A stretch of DNA of 64,000 bases from Prevotella sp. tf2-5 (GTDB lineage: Bacteria > Bacteroidota > Bacteroidia > Bacteroidales > Bacteroidaceae). The notes under the pieces were generated by a model, which saw only the letters and a list, made by a program, of their open reading frames with translations, did no database searches and had not been told where the DNA came from. The stretch covers positions 62,001 through 126,000 of the forward strand of contig NZ_FOWK01000009.1 of NCBI RefSeq assembly GCF_900115435.1. The letters are read 5' to 3'. Below, one piece after another: positions 3,161 through 38,548 of this stretch. The position numbers and the translations under genes were made by a program. Numbering within the stretch: the first letter of the stretch is position 1; the number at the start of each line of letters is the position of its first letter.

Positions 3161-3185
3161 TACATTGAACTTTACTAAAGTATCT

Positions 3186-3251
3186 GTAACAGGGGTAAAG
3201 TGCCTTTGTAACAGGGGTAAACAGCCTGGGAAACAGGGAGAAAGGTAGCTC
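3186..3251. repeat. 22-bp-period array, three units
   Basis: Units begin at 3186, 3208 and 3230. Each opens with a close variant of gtaacaggggtaaa and then diverges over about 8 bases. It lies between two convergent genes. Confidence 0.75.
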
Positions 3252-3285: not shown

Positions 3286-3351
3286 TAGCGCCCGCTACAA
3301 ATATTTGTAGCGGGTGGCAAAAATATCCGTAGCGGTCGCTAAAAACCTTTT
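3286..3351. repeat. Second 22-bp-period array, three units
   Basis: Units begin at 3286, 3308 and 3330, each opening with tagcg and a variant of the following bases. Units 1 and 2 together form the palindrome at 3291-3314. The sequence differs from the array at 3186 but the period is identical. Confidence 0.75.
3291..3314. terminator. Perfect 24-bp palindrome between convergent genes, possible bidirectional terminator
   Basis: cccgctacaaat is followed directly by its exact reverse complement. It sits between the SpoIIE phosphatase (+) and the GH51 gene (-). There is no clear T-tract, and it is part of a 22-bp-period array, so a terminator role is only a suggestion. Confidence 0.4.
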
Positions 3352-7813: not shown

Positions 7814-9355
7814 TTAACGCAATGCTTTGTTTAACATATAGTATACTTCGTTGCTTTGCAACTGTTGCTTGAACTCGTAGGTCTTCGTGTCCTTGTTGAT
7901 CTTGACATACTCGATACCAAGAATCTCGGCGAAGTCCTCCCAGTACTCCTCGGTGATATCATAGGAGAAAGCACTGTGGTGTGTACCACCAGCGAGGATC
8001 CATGCGCCGGCGCCAATCTCGAAGGTCGGCTGTGGAACCCACAAAGCGGAGGCGACAGGCAGGTTAGGCATGGGTTTCGGCTCGATGCACTCTACTTCCT
8101 GAGAGATCAGGCGGAAGCGGTTGCCGAGGTCAACCACTGTAGCCTTGATGCCACGTCCTACTTTGGAAGTGAATACCAGACGGGCGGTCTGTTGCTTGCG
8201 GATACCAATTCCGAGGAAGTGAACCTCCAGTTTGGGTTTGTCGACAGCGATCAGCGGACAAACCTCGAGCATGTGGCTCTGCAGACAAGAGCTGCGGTCG
8301 CCGGCGAAGTTGAGGGTGTAGTCCTCCAGGAACGAGCAACCAGTAGGCAGTCCCTGTGAGATGACCCAAAGGGTGCGATAGAGACAAGCGGTCTTCCAGT
8401 CGCCCTCTGCACCAAAACCAATACCCTCAGCCATCAGACGCTGGGAGGCAAGACCCGGAATCTGGTCGAAACCACAGAAGTCTGGCTGGTTGATATCAGC
8501 ATCACCAAGGTCATCGAAATTGGTGGTAAACGCGGTGGCTCCCTCGTCTTTCAGGACACGGCGAAGGGCTATCTCTGCACGGGCGGCATTACGGACTTTC
8601 TGCCAGTAAACCTCCTCGCCACTCTCGTCAATCTTAATGGTATATTCTTTCTTATAGACTTCCACGAGCTCGTCAACCTCCTTGTCGGTGACCTTCTTCC
8701 AGTAGTCCATCATGGAACTGACGGGGTAGTAGTCGACATGATAGCCGAGACGCTGCTCGAACTCCACACGGTCACCATCCGTGACGGCAACATTGTTCAT
8801 GTTCATACCGAACATCAGACAGCGTACGTTCTTGGCATCGGCAACACCGGCGGCGACACGTGCCCAGACGGCAATCTGTTTCTGGGCAGCGGCATCCTTC
8901 CAATAGCCGCAAACAACCTTACGGGGAACACGCATACGAGTACAGATATGTCCGAACTCGATATCACCATGAGCACTCTGGTTGAGGTTCATAAAGTCCA
9001 TATCCATCGTCTCCCAGGGGATCTCCGCATTGTACTGGGTGTGGAAATGAAGCAACGGCTTCTGTAAGTCTTGCAGACCCTTGATCCACATCTTAGCAGG
9101 TGAGAAGGTGTGCATCCATGTGATGATACCCACACACTTCTCGTCGTTATTGGCAGCTTTCATGACATCTTCCACCTCTTTCGAGCTGTTTGCCGTTCCT
9201 TTATATACTACCTTAATAGGGATGATACCGCTGTTGTTCAGACCTTCTACCATCTCCTTGGAGTGACCGTCCACCTGTACGACAGCGTCACCTCCGTATA
9301 ACAGCTGGGCACCAGTTACCCACCATATCTCATAATTATTAAATGCTTTTGTCAT
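7814..9355 (-). CDS. araA: L-arabinose isomerase
   Basis: 513 aa, the usual family length. It interconverts L-arabinose and L-ribulose in the cytoplasm and needs a divalent metal. Family patterns are present: YEIWWVTGAQLLYGG at the N-terminus, MHTFSPAKMWIKGL near residue 81, EGIGFGAEGDWKTACL, HMLEVCP, and GAWILAGGTHHSAFS near the C-terminus (His metal ligand). It is the first catabolic step for arabinose imported by the symporter encoded upstream, and sits 30 bp after araD in the same operon. Confidence 0.97.
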   Translation of the reverse strand: MTKAFNNYEIWWVTGAQLLYGGDAVVQVDGHSKEMVEGLNNSGIIPIKVVYKGTANSSKEVEDVMKAANNDEKCVGIITWMHTFSPAKMWIKGLQDLQKPLLHFHTQYNAEIPWETMDMDFMNLNQSAHGDIEFGHICTRMRVPRKVVCGYWKDAAAQKQIAVWARVAAGVADAKNVRCLMFGMNMNNVAVTDGDRVEFEQRLGYHVDYYPVSSMMDYWKKVTDKEVDELVEVYKKEYTIKIDESGEEVYWQKVRNAARAEIALRRVLKDEGATAFTTNFDDLGDADINQPDFCGFDQIPGLASQRLMAEGIGFGAEGDWKTACLYRTLWVISQGLPTGCSFLEDYTLNFAGDRSSCLQSHMLEVCPLIAVDKPKLEVHFLGIGIRKQQTARLVFTSKVGRGIKATVVDLGNRFRLISQEVECIEPKPMPNLPVASALWVPQPTFEIGAGAWILAGGTHHSAFSYDITEEYWEDFAEILGIEYVKINKDTKTYEFKQQLQSNEVYYMLNKALR

Positions 9356-22468: not shown

Positions 22469-22534
22469 CATTTAAAGCCTTTAATTAATTCGTTTGGAGG
22501 CTTTAATCACCTCGTTTGAAGCCTTTATTTATCG
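22469..22534. repeat. 22-bp-period array, three units
   Basis: Units begin at 22469, 22491 and 22513; shared core is approximately cgtttgnagnctttaat. Intergenic. Confidence 0.75.
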
Positions 22535-26634: not shown

Positions 26635-26704
26635 TGCTTTCGGCTATAGGCGTTCAGTTGTTTGGCTGGAGCCGTTCAGTCGTTTGGCTATAGCCGAACG
26701 GTTG
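26635..26704. repeat. 22-bp-period array, three units plus a fragment
   Basis: Units begin at 26635, 26657, 26679 and 26701; shared core is like tttggctatagccgttca, itself partly palindromic. Confidence 0.75.
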
Positions 26705-26780: not shown

Positions 26781-27824
26781 TCAGGAGCACAAAGGGACAG
26801 TCCCCCTGTGAGCATGTTGTACCAAGGAACGGAGCTTCTCGAATACGCGGCGGACGTCTGCCGTGCTTTCGGATTCTTTTTCCTTCACCCATCGTTCCTG
26901 CACTTCGCTCTGACGGACGTTGGTGACGAAATCGGACACTTCCTCGTGCGTGAGGCGGCGTACGGTGCAGCCTTCATTGCTCAGTTGCTGAAGCATCTGC
27001 TCGTAACTCTCATCCATCGTCTTGCCCATCGCCTTGTAGGTCTTGCTTGCCGCACGCTCGATGGCTCGCTTGTCCTTCGGGGGCAGGGCATTCCATCGGT
27101 CGAGGTTCATCGCCACTAAATAGATGTGCCCTAACCAAAGTTCCTGCGACACCAACAGGTGAGGGGCGGCACGGTGGGCACCGATGTCCCATCCGCTGTC
27201 TATGTTCACCATGATGCCGTCGATGGCTCCGGAGCGCAGCGAATCGGAAACTCGCTCTCCCCAGGGGATGCGTTTGTTCGTTGCTCCTGCATTCTCCAGA
27301 TAACTGATGTGCCAGAAACTGGCAGTTCGCCACGTCTGCTCTTTCAGCGCATTGAGGTCTGCCATCGGCTCTCGGCTATAGAAGCCCACGGGATAGCCCG
27401 TAGCTACGAGCACGGGGTGGATGCCCGCATGGTGCAGCTCCTCTGTCAGTTCGGGAATCGTCTTGTAGGCTTTGCGGATAAGTGCGACCTGTGCCTCGCC
27501 CGAGGGTCCTGCCAGGAAACTCTTGAACAACTGGTGGAGTGGCATCCGCTGGCTATCGTATTCGGGTACTACCGTAGCCATGTCGGCTTTCGTGCCTTCG
27601 CGCACCGTCTCGTAGGCATCATAGCTCGATGAAAGTTCGCCGTTCCAATGGTGGTCAATGCGGATGCGCCCCTTGCTTTCCTGCTCTACAAGGCGGAAGA
27701 ACTGCCGAGTTACCTGCGTCCGCATGTTGCCCATCGGCTCGTGGTCTGTGAAAGTCAGCGTCTGCGCTCCCACGAACATCGGGACGCAAAGCATCATTAG
27801 AAATATAATTTTATTCAAATCCAT
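26781..27824 (-). CDS. TRAP transporter solute-binding protein (DctP family), orphan
   Basis: 347 aa with a signal peptide ending near FVGAQ. DctP fold: EPMGNMRTQVTRQFFRLVEQ, RIRIDHHWNGELSSS, TKADMATVVPEYDSQ, and the substrate-binding Arg region WRTASFWHISYLENAGA. It would bind an organic acid in the periplasm. No DctQ/DctM membrane subunit is in the window, so it may have another partner or role. Its last 10 or so residues (AHRGTVPLCS) are coded by a dispersed palindromic repeat, so the natural C-terminus was probably replaced. Last gene of a four-gene operon, 16 bp after the aspartyl protease. Confidence 0.85.
   Translation of the reverse strand: MDLNKIIFLMMLCVPMFVGAQTLTFTDHEPMGNMRTQVTRQFFRLVEQESKGRIRIDHHWNGELSSSYDAYETVREGTKADMATVVPEYDSQRMPLHQLFKSFLAGPSGEAQVALIRKAYKTIPELTEELHHAGIHPVLVATGYPVGFYSREPMADLNALKEQTWRTASFWHISYLENAGATNKRIPWGERVSDSLRSGAIDGIMVNIDSGWDIGAHRAAPHLLVSQELWLGHIYLVAMNLDRWNALPPKDKRAIERAASKTYKAMGKTMDESYEQMLQQLSNEGCTVRRLTHEEVSDFVTNVRQSEVQERWVKEKESESTADVRRVFEKLRSLVQHAHRGTVPLCS
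26784..26814. repeat. 31-bp palindromic repeat, copy 1, overlapping the dctP-like 3' end
   Basis: A 31-bp repeat starting ggagcacaaagggacag and ending cctgtgagca; its core gggac-a-gtccc is palindromic. Identical copies are at 29796 and 29910. Confidence 0.9.
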
Positions 27825-29795: not shown

Positions 29796-30023
29796 GGAGC
29801 ACAAAGGGACAGTCCCCCTGTGAGCAGGGAAAGACATTAGGCAATATTTTGAACAGAATCCTAATGGCGTGGAAATAATGATATTAAAAGGAAGTCGACA
29901 AATAATTATGGAGCACAAAGGGACAGTCCCCCTGTGAGCAGGGAAAGACATTAGGCAATATTTTGAACAGAATCCTAATGGCGTGGAAATAATGATATTA
30001 AAAGGAAGTCGACAAATAATTAT
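29796..30023. repeat. Perfect 114-bp tandem duplication, each unit opening with the 31-bp palindromic repeat
   Basis: Unit 1 is 29796-29909, unit 2 is 29910-30023; I find no difference between them. Each begins with the same 31 bp as at 26784-26814. 114 bp is 38 codons, so the frame of the remnant is kept. Confidence 0.92.
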
Positions 30024-34596: not shown

Positions 34597-34722
34597 TTAC
34601 AGCGCATCAAACGTTCCCTCGTCGGGATTCATCTGGAAGTCATCCAGCGGAATGTCTATCGTCTCTTCCCACAAATCTTTTCTTTCCAATTTACCAAATG
34701 TATGATCTGCGTTCCACGGGCA
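34597..34722 (-). pseudogene. 3' fragment of an unknown gene between M13 peptidase and terminator
   Basis: A minus-strand frame different from the M13 frame reads CPWNADHTFGKLERKDLWEE, then TIDIPLDDFQMNPDEGTFDAL and stops at 34597-34599, 2 bp before the terminator T-run. The wording is protein-like and acidic, but there is no usable ATG near its beginning and it runs into the M13 coding end. It looks like the tail of a lost gene. Confidence 0.35.
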
Positions 34723-36577
34723 GGTATAACAGGTGGTTCCGATTGACGTTGTATAGGTTGTACCACATGTCGGTATTCATCACCACACCATTGACTCTAA
34801 GGCGGCCATGGGCGTGCACGTCGTCATGCTTGAGGATTTCGAACGTATTACTACCATACTGGATGCACCAAAGGTGGGCATAGGACTCATAGAACTTGCG
34901 GAGCTGCTCGTTGCGTGTCTCACCGGTGAAGCCCTGCTGGTCGAGGCGCTCCTGGTAGGCGTCGAGGGCAGTGAGGAAACCACCCAGGTCGGCAATGTTC
35001 TCACCGAGTGTGCGCACACCGTCACAGTAGACCAGCGGATCGCGCTCGGGGTCGAGCTCCAGGAGGTTGAAGGTGCGGACGAGGGTCTCGCTGCGCTCCT
35101 TGAAATTCATCTTGTCGGCAACGGTCCACCAGTTCTTGCGCTCGCCATACTTGTCCCACTCGGAGCCGTTGTTGTCGAAACCGTGGGTGAACTCATGGCC
35201 GATGATGGTGAAGACGGCATAGTAGCAGGCCTCGCTGACGTCGCCTGTGGGCATGAGGGGCGGCAGGAGCATGGCGGGGTAGATGGAGATGGAGTTGTCG
35301 GAGAGCATATAGAGGGCGTTGACCAGTGTGAGGTCGGAGGGGATGGGTTCCTCGTCGGGACCTTGCATGGAGCTCATAATCCTGACAGCGAAGAGGTCGT
35401 CGGTGCCCACGAGCTTGGCCGTCAGTCGGGCATTAGCAGCCTTCAGCCGATGCAGAGCCTCTACCATGGTCTTGCAGTCGGCGAGTGCGGGGAGACACTC
35501 CTTGTGCCAAGTGTCGGGGTAGCCGACGCACATGTGGCAGTTGTTGAGCTTGTCGATGGCATTGTTCTTGGTGGTCTCGCTCATCCAGTCGACGCGAGCG
35601 ATGCGCTTGCGGAGGGATGCCTGGATTTCCTTGGTGATGTTGACGAACTTGTCCTTCAGGCTCTGCGGCATGTATTTCTGCTGCACGTGGTAGGACATGA
35701 GGTAGTTCAGCTCCATTCGGGCATCAATGCGCAGCGACTTCAGCGTGGCCTGGTCCTTGGCAGGCAGTGTCTTGTTGAACTCGGCCAGTCCAGCCTCGTC
35801 GGCAAAGGCCTTATAAGTCAGAAAGGCGCTCTGCATGACATGATAGAGGTCGTCGACGCTGTGGCTGTCCCAGTAGATGTTCCAGCGCAGGATTTCTACT
35901 TCGGACATCTGCAGCATGGCAGGGTCTATACCCATTCCCTCGGCAACGAGTGTGAGTGCCGTCTCGCCATTTTCCCCCCTGGTGGTTGACAGGCTGCGGC
36001 GTGGCTGTGACTTCATGCGCTCTATGTTCTCCTGGGTGTTGATTCTGTACGCTGACATGGGCAGGATGGTGAGTTTCAGCCTGTCCTTGTCCCAGATAGG
36101 GGTGGCCTGTACGACGTCGATACCGTCCATGAACATCTTGCCGAGGGTGCGGTAAGCCTCTTCCTTGGTGGCGGGCTTCTTATATTTCGCAGCCAATGCG
36201 GTGATGTAGTCGCGTGACTCCTTGGAGTAGTCGTGCATGTGGTCTGAGAGGGTGAAGAAGCGGCCGATGTCGGGAACGGTCTTCTTCAACTCCTGTACCC
36301 TCACTTCCATGGCTTCCTTGGCGGCATAGATTCCGCCGATGTTCTTGCTCAGGTCGTCGGGGATGGGGTTTTCCTTCAGCCACGTGCCGTTACAGTAGTC
36401 GAAAAAACTGTCGCCGGGCTTCACCGAAAGGTCCTTGTTGGCTAAATAGTCGTCAGGATAATGATACGGATCTGTCGCCGACGACGCCTCACCATCATCC
36501 TTCGAACAGGCGGTAAACAAACTCAAACTGCTGAAAGCTAAAAAGGTAATAAATACCCAAAGATTATTGCCCTTCAT
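34691..36577 (-). CDS. M13-family zinc metallopeptidase (PepO-like) lipoprotein
   Basis: 628 aa. Lipobox LSLFTACSKDD. Neprilysin-type architecture: long helical N-terminal domain from DYCNGTWLKENPIPDD (M13 N-terminal mark), zinc site IIGHEFTHGFDNNGSEWDK near residue 463 and the third ligand Glu in LGENIADLGG. The chain ends in SYIW, as M13 proteins usually end in a Trp. Cuts peptides of up to about 40 residues in the periplasm or at the surface. It stands alone, convergent with the S37 operon. Confidence 0.93.
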   Translation of the reverse strand: MKGNNLWVFITFLAFSSLSLFTACSKDDGEASSATDPYHYPDDYLANKDLSVKPGDSFFDYCNGTWLKENPIPDDLSKNIGGIYAAKEAMEVRVQELKKTVPDIGRFFTLSDHMHDYSKESRDYITALAAKYKKPATKEEAYRTLGKMFMDGIDVVQATPIWDKDRLKLTILPMSAYRINTQENIERMKSQPRRSLSTTRGENGETALTLVAEGMGIDPAMLQMSEVEILRWNIYWDSHSVDDLYHVMQSAFLTYKAFADEAGLAEFNKTLPAKDQATLKSLRIDARMELNYLMSYHVQQKYMPQSLKDKFVNITKEIQASLRKRIARVDWMSETTKNNAIDKLNNCHMCVGYPDTWHKECLPALADCKTMVEALHRLKAANARLTAKLVGTDDLFAVRIMSSMQGPDEEPIPSDLTLVNALYMLSDNSISIYPAMLLPPLMPTGDVSEACYYAVFTIIGHEFTHGFDNNGSEWDKYGERKNWWTVADKMNFKERSETLVRTFNLLELDPERDPLVYCDGVRTLGENIADLGGFLTALDAYQERLDQQGFTGETRNEQLRKFYESYAHLWCIQYGSNTFEILKHDDVHAHGRLRVNGVVMNTDMWYNLYNVNRNHLLYLPVERRSYIW

Positions 36578-36863: not shown

Positions 36864-36888
36864 TGAAATCCTTGAATTTCTATCAGTA

Positions 36889-37457
36889 CACAGTTTACAG
36901 ATTGAATAACAGTTAACAAATAACAGTTCCGATTTTCTGATTCGGTTGGCAATGATTGATTTCAGATTTCAGATTTCAGTAAGTCAAAACGTTGAATGCT
37001 ATGACAAATGACGGATGACAGTTAGTGAAAGTCAACCTTTCTAGTAAAAGCGTCAACGATTCCCAGGGTAGGGTGTCAACTTCTTCAGTATGGTAATGCA
37101 GTCTCAGTCTCAGAATCTCAGTTTTTTAAAGCGAACGAACGAACAGTTGAACAGTTATTCCATTTGCCCAAAAATGTTGACCACTAATTTTATTATATAT
37201 ATATTATTTATAATATATATATAATAATATAATATATAGACTTTTATGTATGTTCCTACTTTAGTAAACTGTTCGCTGTTCGTTCGTTCGCTTACTGAGA
37301 CACTGAGACTGAGATTGTTTCCCTCTTTTTCGCTAACTGTTATTTGTTATTTGTTTGAAAATCCGGTCAAATGATAAACTGTCATTTGTCATTTGTCATA
37401 GATCACTTACTGAAATCTGAAATCTGAAATCGCAAACTGTAATCTGTAATCTGTAAT
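36889..37457. repeat. Long mirrored repeat of six heptamer-type modules
   Basis: Left modules in order: ttacagatt (36893), aacagttaacaaataacag (36907), gatttcagatttcagattt-type (36958), gacaaatgacggatgacag (37002), cagtctcagtctcag (37099), gcgaacgaacgaacag (37131). Right of the AT centre come their complements: ctgttcgttcgttcgc (37269), ctgagacactgagactgag (37295), ctgttatttgttatttg (37337), ctgtcatttgtcatttg (37379), ctgaaatctgaaatctg (37410), ctgtaatctgtaatctg (37437). The order is mirrored except that one module is displaced. Confidence 0.85.
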
Positions 37458-37465
37458 GCGAGAGA

Positions 37466-37553
37466 TTCCAGTATTTGCGATGGCTTGTTCCAGTATCTCC
37501 TTCACCTTGTTCCAGTATCTGTTATAGGGTGTTCCAATATCTGTTATACCCCC
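37466..37553. repeat. 22-bp-period array, four units
   Basis: Units begin at 37466, 37488, 37510 and 37532, each opening ttccagtatctg or a close variant and then diverging. Confidence 0.8.
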
Positions 37554-37595
37554 ATAGTAATGCCTAATATCACTCATAAGTTTGTAGTATCAAAA

Positions 37596-37654: not shown

Positions 37655-38548
37655 ATGAGGTATAACCCATATAACCAGCAAGGCGAATATGACCATTTTG
37701 TCGTCAGCGAGGAACAGCCGTTATTGGAGTTCTTGTTAGAAAATGTCAAGCAGAGTCGTAACAAGATCAAGTTGACACTGCAGGGCAGGGGAATCCGTGT
37801 GAACGGCAAGACAGTGAGTCAGTTTGACTTCCTGCTGAAACCGGGTATGAAGGTCGCTGTCAGTAAGACCAAGCGTAACCAGACACAGTTCAAGAGCCGT
37901 TGGTTGAAAATCGTGTATGAGGACCGTTGGATCATTGTTGTTGAGAAGCATGAGGGAATCCTGTCCATGGCAGCTGGTCATTCCTCGTTGAATGTCAAGA
38001 CGATCCTGGACGACTATTTCAAGAAGTCACGTCAGAAATGCACGGCTCATGTGGTGCATCGCTTAGACCGTGACACGTCAGGACTGATGGTCTATGCGAA
38101 GGACATGGATACGGAGCAGGCGTTGGAGCATTACTGGCATGATATCGTGTATGACCGTCGTTATGTCGCCGTGTTGAGTGGGGAGGTGGAACAGGACGAG
38201 GGAACCATCGCCAACTGGCTGAAGGACAACAAGGCGTATGTGACATACTCTTCACCTGTTGATAATGGGGGAAAATATGCGGTGACTCATTTCCATGTCC
38301 TTGACCGTACTACGGACCACTCGCTGGTGGAGTTCAAGTTAGAGACGGGCCGTAAGAACCAGATCCGAGTGCATGCCGCTGATATGGGACATCCAGTATG
38401 TGGTGACGTGAAATACGGAGATGGAAACGACCCGATACACCGTCTCTGTCTGCATGCTTTCCTGTTGTGCATGGAGCATCCGGTGACCCATGAGCGGATG
38501 GAGTTCGAGACCCCCATCCCCGTAGCATTCAGACAACTGTTTAAATAG
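37655..38548 (+). CDS. RluA-family rRNA/tRNA pseudouridine synthase
   Basis: 297 aa. N-terminal S4 RNA-binding domain (GRGIRVNGKTVSQFDFLLKPG near residue 50) and a catalytic domain with VHRLDRDTSGLMVYAKD; the Asp in HRLDRDTSG is the catalytic residue. GRKNQIRVHAADMGHPVCGD closes the active site. Isomerises uridine to pseudouridine in structural RNA; which site (RluC- or RluD-like) cannot be fixed. Own promoter; a small membrane-protein gene follows 10 bp later. Confidence 0.93.
   Translation: MRYNPYNQQGEYDHFVVSEEQPLLEFLLENVKQSRNKIKLTLQGRGIRVNGKTVSQFDFLLKPGMKVAVSKTKRNQTQFKSRWLKIVYEDRWIIVVEKHEGILSMAAGHSSLNVKTILDDYFKKSRQKCTAHVVHRLDRDTSGLMVYAKDMDTEQALEHYWHDIVYDRRYVAVLSGEVEQDEGTIANWLKDNKAYVTYSSPVDNGGKYAVTHFHVLDRTTDHSLVEFKLETGRKNQIRVHAADMGHPVCGDVKYGDGNDPIHRLCLHAFLLCMEHPVTHERMEFETPIPVAFRQLFK

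Follow-up and report, generated by a model that had tools for sequence, protein, structure and literature searches.

A nested heptamer palindrome in Prevotella sp. tf2-5 as a probable gene-free stack of origin-type sites from mobile islands

Introduction

In the genome of Prevotella sp. tf2-5, a stretch of 64,000 nucleotides (the window) carries short runs of several heptamers on one side of an AT-rich centre and, as their complements, again on the other. The locus raises the question of what such a structure is and where its different heptamer codes come from. The preliminary description, made from the letters alone, had offered a very large cruciform or RNA hairpin, or a replication, segregation, or recombination site. 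No description of such palindromes was found in the openly accessible literature searched, a result that holds for that collection. Here, this unexplained giant palindrome is tied to Prevotella islands with a primase-like and predicted MCM-like replicase, and is read as, probably, a gene-free stack of origin-type palindromes derived from several families of chromosomal mobile islands.

Results

Architecture of the window structure

The structure is flanked by a peptidase M13 gene and a pseudouridine synthase gene, and no replicase gene lies beside it. The named sequences most closely related to the synthase belong to Prevotella assemblies from rumen and deer; hence, the genome is regarded as that of a rumen-type Prevotella. 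The arms of the palindrome reach out to 36890 and 37457, and every layer has its own heptamer code that is common to both arms (Table 1). Inverted-repeat analysis bears out the mirrored modules noticed earlier: all six types exist on both sides of the AT-rich palindrome and are complementary. The near-mirror order was also correctly described, with the ATAACAR layer situated outside the ATTTCAG and ATGACAR layers on the left, but inside both on the right. The ordering is far beyond chance, as had been claimed. RNA folding of 36880–37560 gives −241.9 kcal/mol (z −17.9) and DNA folding of the same segment gives z −11.9, with 0 of 20 shuffles as good in either case.

Table 1. Features of the window structure and its neighbouring genes, in window coordinates
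Feature	Position	Strand	Evidence
Peptidase M13 gene	34691–36577	−	
Outermost ATTACAG-code (TA) layer, left arm, degenerate	36890–36903	+	Inverted repeat I17 with 37441–37454, 93%
ATAACAR (AA) layer, left arm	36907–36930	+	I9, 90% (36908–36928 / 37335–37355)
ATTTCAG (TT) layer, left arm	36958–36984	+	I2, 27/27 bp; replicase tails L397 and L341, score 44
ATGACAR (GA) layer, left arm	36999–37023	+	I3, 92%; best replicase tail L207, score 36
Left spacer, three GTCAAC words 21 and 23 bp apart	37031–37098	+	Sequence, tokens
CTCAG (CT) layer, left arm	37099–37124	+	I6, 88% (37099–37122 / 37294–37317); weak match to replicase tail L340
Innermost GAACGAAC (GAAC) layer, left arm	37131–37158	+	I1; replicase tail L381, score 47
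AT-rich palindromic core	37187–37230	.	I7, 95% complementary
Innermost GAACGAAC (GAAC) layer, right arm	37267–37291	−	Sequence and I1 partner
CTCAG (CT) layer, right arm	37294–37317	−	I6 partner
ATAACAR (AA) layer, right arm, out of mirror order	37335–37355	−	I9 pair and token order
ATGACAR (GA) layer, right arm	37377–37401	−	I3 partner
ATTTCAG (TT) layer, right arm	37405–37431	−	I2 partner
Outermost ATTACAG-code (TA) layer, right arm	37434–37457	−	Complement of left arm; match to replicase tail L399, score 46
22-bp array (TTCCAGTATCT...), separate dispersed repeat	37466–37542	+	D1, spacing 22 and 22; separate copies elsewhere
Pseudouridine synthase gene	37655–38548	+	

The adjoining 22-bp array is likewise real. 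Short arrays with a 22-bp period, belonging to unrelated sequence families, are located at 3176–3238, 3286–3345, 22471–22531, and 26642–26696 in addition to this one. The window also contains GGGACAG hairpin-type repeats at 26788–26813, 29800–29825, and 29914–29939, which are found in L311 and other loci as well, and a perfect 114-bp tandem duplication at 29796–30023 contains the GGGACAG repeat.

Copies within the genome and distribution among relatives

A blastn comparison of the element with its own genome recovers the module set elsewhere, with copies at 96%, 90%, 86%, 85%, 76%, and 75%, plus many partial ones. Because further copies, including the first four, exist in the same genome, the objection that the element might be an assembly artefact of one place does not hold. 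The motif ATNNCARATNNCAGTT occurs 28 times in the forward and 33 times in the reverse direction, compared with 0 and 1 for the pattern read backwards. Tokenising 19 loci of this genome yields 19 palindromes with both arms, together with halves at contig ends. The innermost code is identical in both arms in all 19, and five innermost codes are utilized: GAAC, CAAA, CGG, AT, and CT. The outer layers likewise switch in both arms together, between GA, sGA, or tGA, between CT or CA, and between AA or TAA; one-sided loss of a layer is observed in some copies (L023, L026, L027, L028, and L029), and the AA layer departs from the mirror order. Near-identical copies are situated at different places, for example L044 and L057, with 98% over 200 bp.

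For the orthologous locus, 80 loci were retained. A blastn comparison covered 24 of them, and in the 11 relatives whose upstream DNA was inspected, the element is absent directly upstream of the pseudouridine synthase gene. In L232, an AT-core-like match is located approximately 1.9 kb upstream of the synthase gene. The neighbouring gene often differs between relatives, and therefore no clean empty site was obtained for the window element.

Counting this genome each time, the motif ATNNCARATNNCARATNNCAGTT is present in 45 genomes of a 200-genome sample of the genus and in 17 of 201 genomes sampled across the family (6 of 30 genera). In the phylum sample it occurs in 2 of 247, namely this genome and one mixed-code match that is probably due to chance. 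Outside this genome, both arms have a common code in 51 of 51 pairs, compared with a permutation mean of 22.8 and a maximum of 32 in 10,000, where two elements are counted twice and the genomes are related. A further 19 forward arms are partnerless under the strict pattern, some having a degenerate partner, some being situated at contig ends, and some being half elements. The simple members span up to approximately 330 bp and consist of an array, a spacer, the AT palindrome, a spacer, and the complementary array. Several palindromes are located at contig ends, which may help explain fragmented Prevotella assemblies. An exact 25-mer found no match in the genome contig collection. A phage origin was considered and rejected: the viral contigs contain 41 three-unit matches, of which none has a second arm within 500 bases, and since the second arm is lacking and the units are mostly of mixed code, these matches are attributed to chance.

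The island replicase and its tail array

Solo heptamer arrays are located inside the last codons of a gene for a large protein, here termed the replicase. Its relatives exist in 27 of 60 genus genomes searched, with up to 16 matches in one genome, and twenty stretches around them were fetched and added to the existing loci. Across the 60 genomes, 11 contain both replicase and heptamer pattern, 4 the pattern only, 16 the replicase only, and 29 neither (Fisher p 0.016, tallied by hand from two listings of related genomes). Three of the pattern-only genomes (G034, G035, and G064) have heptamer matches with no replicase at 1e-30; the fourth, G073, has mixed code and is probably a chance match. On plasmids and phages, no replicase match was found at 1e-10 in 72,556 and 50,697 records.

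Of 21 replicase genes, 17 have an array of period 7–9 whose end falls in the interval from 52 nt ahead of the last codon to 13 nt past it; in one of the 17, the bases just after the last codons form the array. By this measure, no tail array is found in the remaining four (L385, L389, L395, and L396); L395 and L396 have an array past the stop codon, and L385, L389, and L396 possess a match between tail and own palindrome despite failing the array measure. Within the gene, the tail array is the highest-scoring stretch in 16 of these 17, the exception being L390. Arrays in the gene body upstream of the tail array occur in L390, where the array scores above the tail, and more weakly in L386, L389, and L397; those of L386 and L389 are nearly the same.

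In the case of L340, Pfam assigns the replicase a BT4734-like primase domain (PF08800), which falls just under the cut-off in L341 and is absent by Pfam in L342 and L207. In NCBIfam there is a single sub-threshold match, to a CRISPR-associated primase-polymerase, and no sequence relative exists in the PDB at E 1. The model of the L380 replicase comprises 752 residues (mean pLDDT 79.8, pTM 0.52, from an alignment of 19 rows). Its ATPase part, approximately residues 334–675, aligns to MCM helicases with Z 14.3–15.8 in the rows shown and an rmsd mostly of 3.4–4.3 over approximately 245–282 residues. Furthermore, Foldseek gives eight matches at E 0.001 or better, all of them MCM subunits (best E 2.5e-5; TM 0.23–0.26 by query length). 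The model thus suggests an MCM-like fold for the ATPase. The predicted secondary structure of the C-terminus (residues 692–743) follows a winged-helix-like order of helix, strand, helix, helix, strand, and strand, in which the codons of the array would encode the wing. In the alignment, the wing is no more variable than the recognition helix, with majority fractions of 0.56 and 0.57.

Palindrome arms match the replicase tails

Upstream of the replicase, palindromes were sought by an AT core and inverted arms, with the code left out of the detection. The detector was applied to 19 of 25 replicase loci, the six with little upstream DNA being left out. A palindrome is detected upstream in 11 of the 19, none with two, and in the other eight the core and arm detector finds none. 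In all 11, the arms match the tail of the replicase found at that locus, with scores of 30–59 compared with an off-diagonal mean of 21.2 (s.d. 10.1), and none of 20,000 permutations reaches the sum; related genomes among these loci are not independent observations. The own tail is strictly best in seven of the 11; in the remaining four, the code is the common GA type. For two of the eight loci missed by the detector, array k-mers reveal an inverted pair upstream (L390) and one arm at the contig start (L397). The codes matched by the detector or by k-mers include CT, GA, TA, GAAC, TATTCAG, TTCACAA, AATACAG, and TT, and the palindromes are situated 4.7–12 kb upstream of the replicase array. Palindrome and replicase of one island are thereby linked through their code.

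The layers of the window structure can be compared with the same tails. The TA, TT, GA, and GAAC layers reach 46, 44, 36, and 47, compared with shuffled maxima of 24, 21, 24, and 25. The CT layer only equals its shuffled maximum (25, with tail L340, versus 25), no replicase tail matches the AA (ATAACAR) layer above the shuffled control (25 versus 28), and the CGG code has no replicase tail match. The TT-matching replicase L341 sits in this same genome, and within 3.7 kb upstream of it no AT-core palindrome was detected. Two replicases of this genome have 83% identity along most of their sequence, yet their codes differ, one being CT and the other TT.

Islands, cargo, and nesting of units

The islands are arranged in the order of an HU-like gene, the palindrome, the cargo genes, and the replicase with its tail array. 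When the islands are oriented with the replicase reading rightward, 9 of 13 have an HU-HIG cluster gene on the left side of the palindrome, pointing away from it; in six of the nine, one or two small ORFs (75–163 aa, perhaps spurious) are located between the two. A scan confirms PF18291 in three of the HU-like members. Three of the four palindromes without an HU-like gene (L381, L384, and L397) are at or near a contig end. A DUF5675-like gene, labelled from the sequence, follows the replicase in 5 of 18 loci. The cargo was scanned in part, and restriction or other anti-phage genes are found in six of the seven islands with scanned cargo. It includes EcoRII and a cytosine methylase (L340), a type IIG enzyme with specificity unit and an AAA ATPase (L381), a type III pair (L383), a GmrSD-type protein (L384), a DUF1016/YhcG nuclease (L393), a type I restriction subunit (L391, where no palindrome is detected), and an 820-aa protein with a GIY-YIG domain (L380). 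PADLOC was tried on 10 cargo proteins and has no match for two, the 820-aa protein of L380 and a 442-aa protein of L381.

At the tadA–birA junction (genes named by eye), an island of approximately 8.8 kb exists in G105 and is absent from G007, where one alignment spans the joined flanks, and from G013, where the two flanks abut. The island of G105 (L342) is bounded by inverted terminator-like sequences recognised by eye, the right one having six further partial matches in the genome. The island of L207, with a GA-code replicase, encloses a gene (7875–9008) for a divergent Y1-like protein of 377 residues, with Y1_Tnp just below the cut-off, approximately 110 bp from the palindrome. In L344 and L345, from two genera, a CT-code palindrome is located directly upstream of a two-gene operon encoding a 438–439-aa protein and a CHC2 zinc finger protein (PF01807, scanned in L345); this operon is perhaps a second replicase type utilizing the same kind of site.

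The interior of the palindromes reveals how layers are combined. Beside the CTCAR/CACAR arm, the right spacer (TTCGGYC...) is of the same sequence type where the unit has its own core inside (L038 and, from another species, L085) and where the interior is occupied by another unit (L028, L032, L034, L037, and others). The core is thus replaced by an inner unit at some nesting junctions. This spacer is not seen in L022–L025 or L030: the A-type copies L022–L025 have merely a few bases at its position, and L030 contains the interior of an AT-code unit but CT arms, which indicates that codes can also change in place. IS-like inserts, named from the sequence by eye, also occur in the core, in L206 and in L031/L039. 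In L206 (G408:C17), an IS-like element with a transposase-like gene (by eye) occupies the AT core, and the arms are now 2.9 kb apart; this locus had been considered as a larger mobile unit with genes between its arms, which is rejected. Much of the way in which the codes are packed like Russian dolls follows from insertion into the AT core. Nesting does not account for the displaced AA layer, and the stack is imperfectly nested.

Discussion

Since four layers of the window structure match replicase tails, the structure is read as stacked island origins: it is probably a pile of origin-type palindromes, devoid of genes, that derive from several families of mobile islands in the chromosome. To judge from the codes, at least four, probably six, island families would have contributed their origins without island genes. 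The heptamers would act as iterons and the palindrome as a putative replication origin of the island, a role suggested by the enzyme type, the stem-loop of pRN1, and the origin architecture of phage P4. The earlier proposal of a replication, segregation, or recombination site thus survives in part: replication fits best, since the heptamers match replicase arrays, and the replication concerned is that of mobile islands, not of this chromosome. In the mechanism we propose, the C-terminal winged helix of the replicase would bind the heptamers of its own code in the palindrome and in the gene tail, the AT core would melt or extrude as a cruciform, the MCM-like ATPase would unwind the DNA, and the primase domain would prime synthesis. 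New palindromes would have entered the AT core of older ones, generating a concentric stack of codes, and the stack, with the island genes missing in the window, would have spread as a gene-free repeat. The stack possibly multiplied by a MITE-like route or through use in trans by replicases. Only 6 of the 143 genes flanking palindromes are HU-like; hence, the majority of the palindromes are orphans with MITE-like behaviour.

This behaviour leads to the rival that the element is a MITE-like transposon family moved by a hypothetical transposase, in which the arrays are the terminal inverted repeats and whose sequence the islands merely picked up. The copies are indeed short, gene-free, intergenic, and dispersed, with terminal inverted repeats, no coding capacity, and no clear orientation preference, and near-identical copies exist elsewhere (L044/L057, and the 96% copy in this genome). 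However, target-site duplication is not above shuffles in 49 flank pairs, whose boundaries are fuzzy, and capture by itself would not be expected to give 11 of 11 code matches between palindrome and tail; unsystematic inspection revealed no transposase with such ends, and the single large insert examined between arms is IS-like and lies in the core. This rival is therefore considered unlikely. An operator and promoter pair is improbable. Here the palindrome would control the HU-like gene on one side and the cargo operon on the other, and the tail array would act as another operator, with either a regulator or the replicase as its reader. This accords with the position of the palindrome in 9 of 13 islands, between the HU-like gene and cargo genes that mostly point away from it, but leaves the AT palindrome core and the array in the last replicase codons unexplained, and many orphan copies are beside unrelated genes, the largest recurring flanking family being five HU-like genes. 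A regulon, with the same code beside the same genes, finds no support: the 143 flanking genes present 74 5′ ends and 69 3′ ends and form 11 recurring gene groups, of which that family is the largest.

The very strong folding energy would suit a large structured non-coding RNA or a bidirectional terminator, as would an excess of G–U-type mismatches in the oriented copies of this genome (64 versus 32 of the other orientation, in copies that are related). In other genomes, however, the mismatch types number 36 and 26, the window has no Rfam match at threshold, and the neighbours are convergent in 12, divergent in 17, and tandem in 24 of 53 cases, with 12 more in which a neighbour is unknown. This rival is very improbable, and the RNA hairpin role suggested at the outset is unsupported, given the lack of a clear orientation preference toward genes and of a Rfam match at threshold in the window. 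A REPIN-type repeat moved by a Y1 (RAYT) transposase is scarcely tenable. Y1 genes do occur in 24 of 40 chosen genomes of the group, and the divergent Y1-like gene of L207 lies close to a palindrome, but an ATNNCAR array accompanies 0 of 20 Y1 stretches (L312 has a two-unit CCATCAG run), and at least six of 12 displayed Y1 genes are flanked instead by GGGGACAG-type repeats. The REPIN/RAYT reading is thereby largely refuted.

Within the reading as stacked island origins, a further idea is conceivable but doubtful: the tail iterons may serve at once as the DNA site and as the codons for the wing that would read this site, so that the code encodes its own reader. The wing peptides by code are LQMTDDSF for GA, SQISNLSY for CT, FQISDFSY for TT, and LQITDNSY or LQITDYSY for TA. 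If this were true, a single conversion event, with a palindrome arm as donor for the tail, would alter the site along with its reader, origin specificity would shift at one stroke and give rise to mutually compatible island families, and discarded origins would pile up as nested palindromes. If the reading as stacked origins is right, the heptamer codes serve as a genomic bar code that links island, origin, and fossil origins, and provide a tractable case for the diversification of replication specificity.

Comparison with known systems

Porphyromonas gingivalis belongs to the same order of bacteria as Prevotella. Its BrickBuilt MITE, with 19 intergenic copies per genome, contains tandem repeats inside an inverted-repeat element (PMC4596501), as observed here. 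In BrickBuilt, however, 23-bp direct repeats are located between short IS5-like ends, and the part of that report available to us describes neither heptamer arms nor a replicase partner (PMC4596501). REPIN/RAYT and TIRYT systems, which also occur in Bacteroidetes, combine intergenic palindromic repeats with a single-strand endonuclease partner, but in the available parts of these accounts both partner enzyme and repeat sequence differ from the heptamer palindromes (PMC6006769, PMC3733652), and the Y1 genes here carry other repeats. The GGGGACAG-type repeats at Y1 (RAYT-like) genes of this genome and its relatives resemble the GGGGWSAS ends given for TIRYT in the accessible portion of PMC3733652.

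In the case of pRN1, a stem-loop next to the primase–helicase gene is needed for replication, according to the part of the report at hand (PMC4234260). Like the islands, for which this derives partly from prediction, pRN1 unites an archaeo-eukaryotic primase, a helicase, and a winged helix in one protein, and its stem-loop is a cis-site conserved in shape, not in sequence, which resembles the island palindrome (PMC4234260, as far as available). The arrangement differs: the pRN1 stem-loop comprises approximately 100 nt directly downstream of the gene, with no heptamer arms described in the accessible text (PMC4234260), whereas the island palindrome is 4.7–12 kb upstream, and the array alone, as a second one, is situated at the 3′ end in the gene tail. 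The ATPase fold predicted for the island replicase is MCM-like, unlike that of pRN1. In phage P4, the origin is recognised by the alpha protein, two separated iteron sites exist, and a second origin is located inside the alpha gene. To our knowledge, P4 has no giant AT-core palindrome. The two matching arrays of each island, presumably recognised by the replicase, would correspond to the P4 iterons. Furthermore, in the available part of its account, P4 alpha combines primase and helicase activity in one protein (PMC8628076), as predicted for the island replicase.
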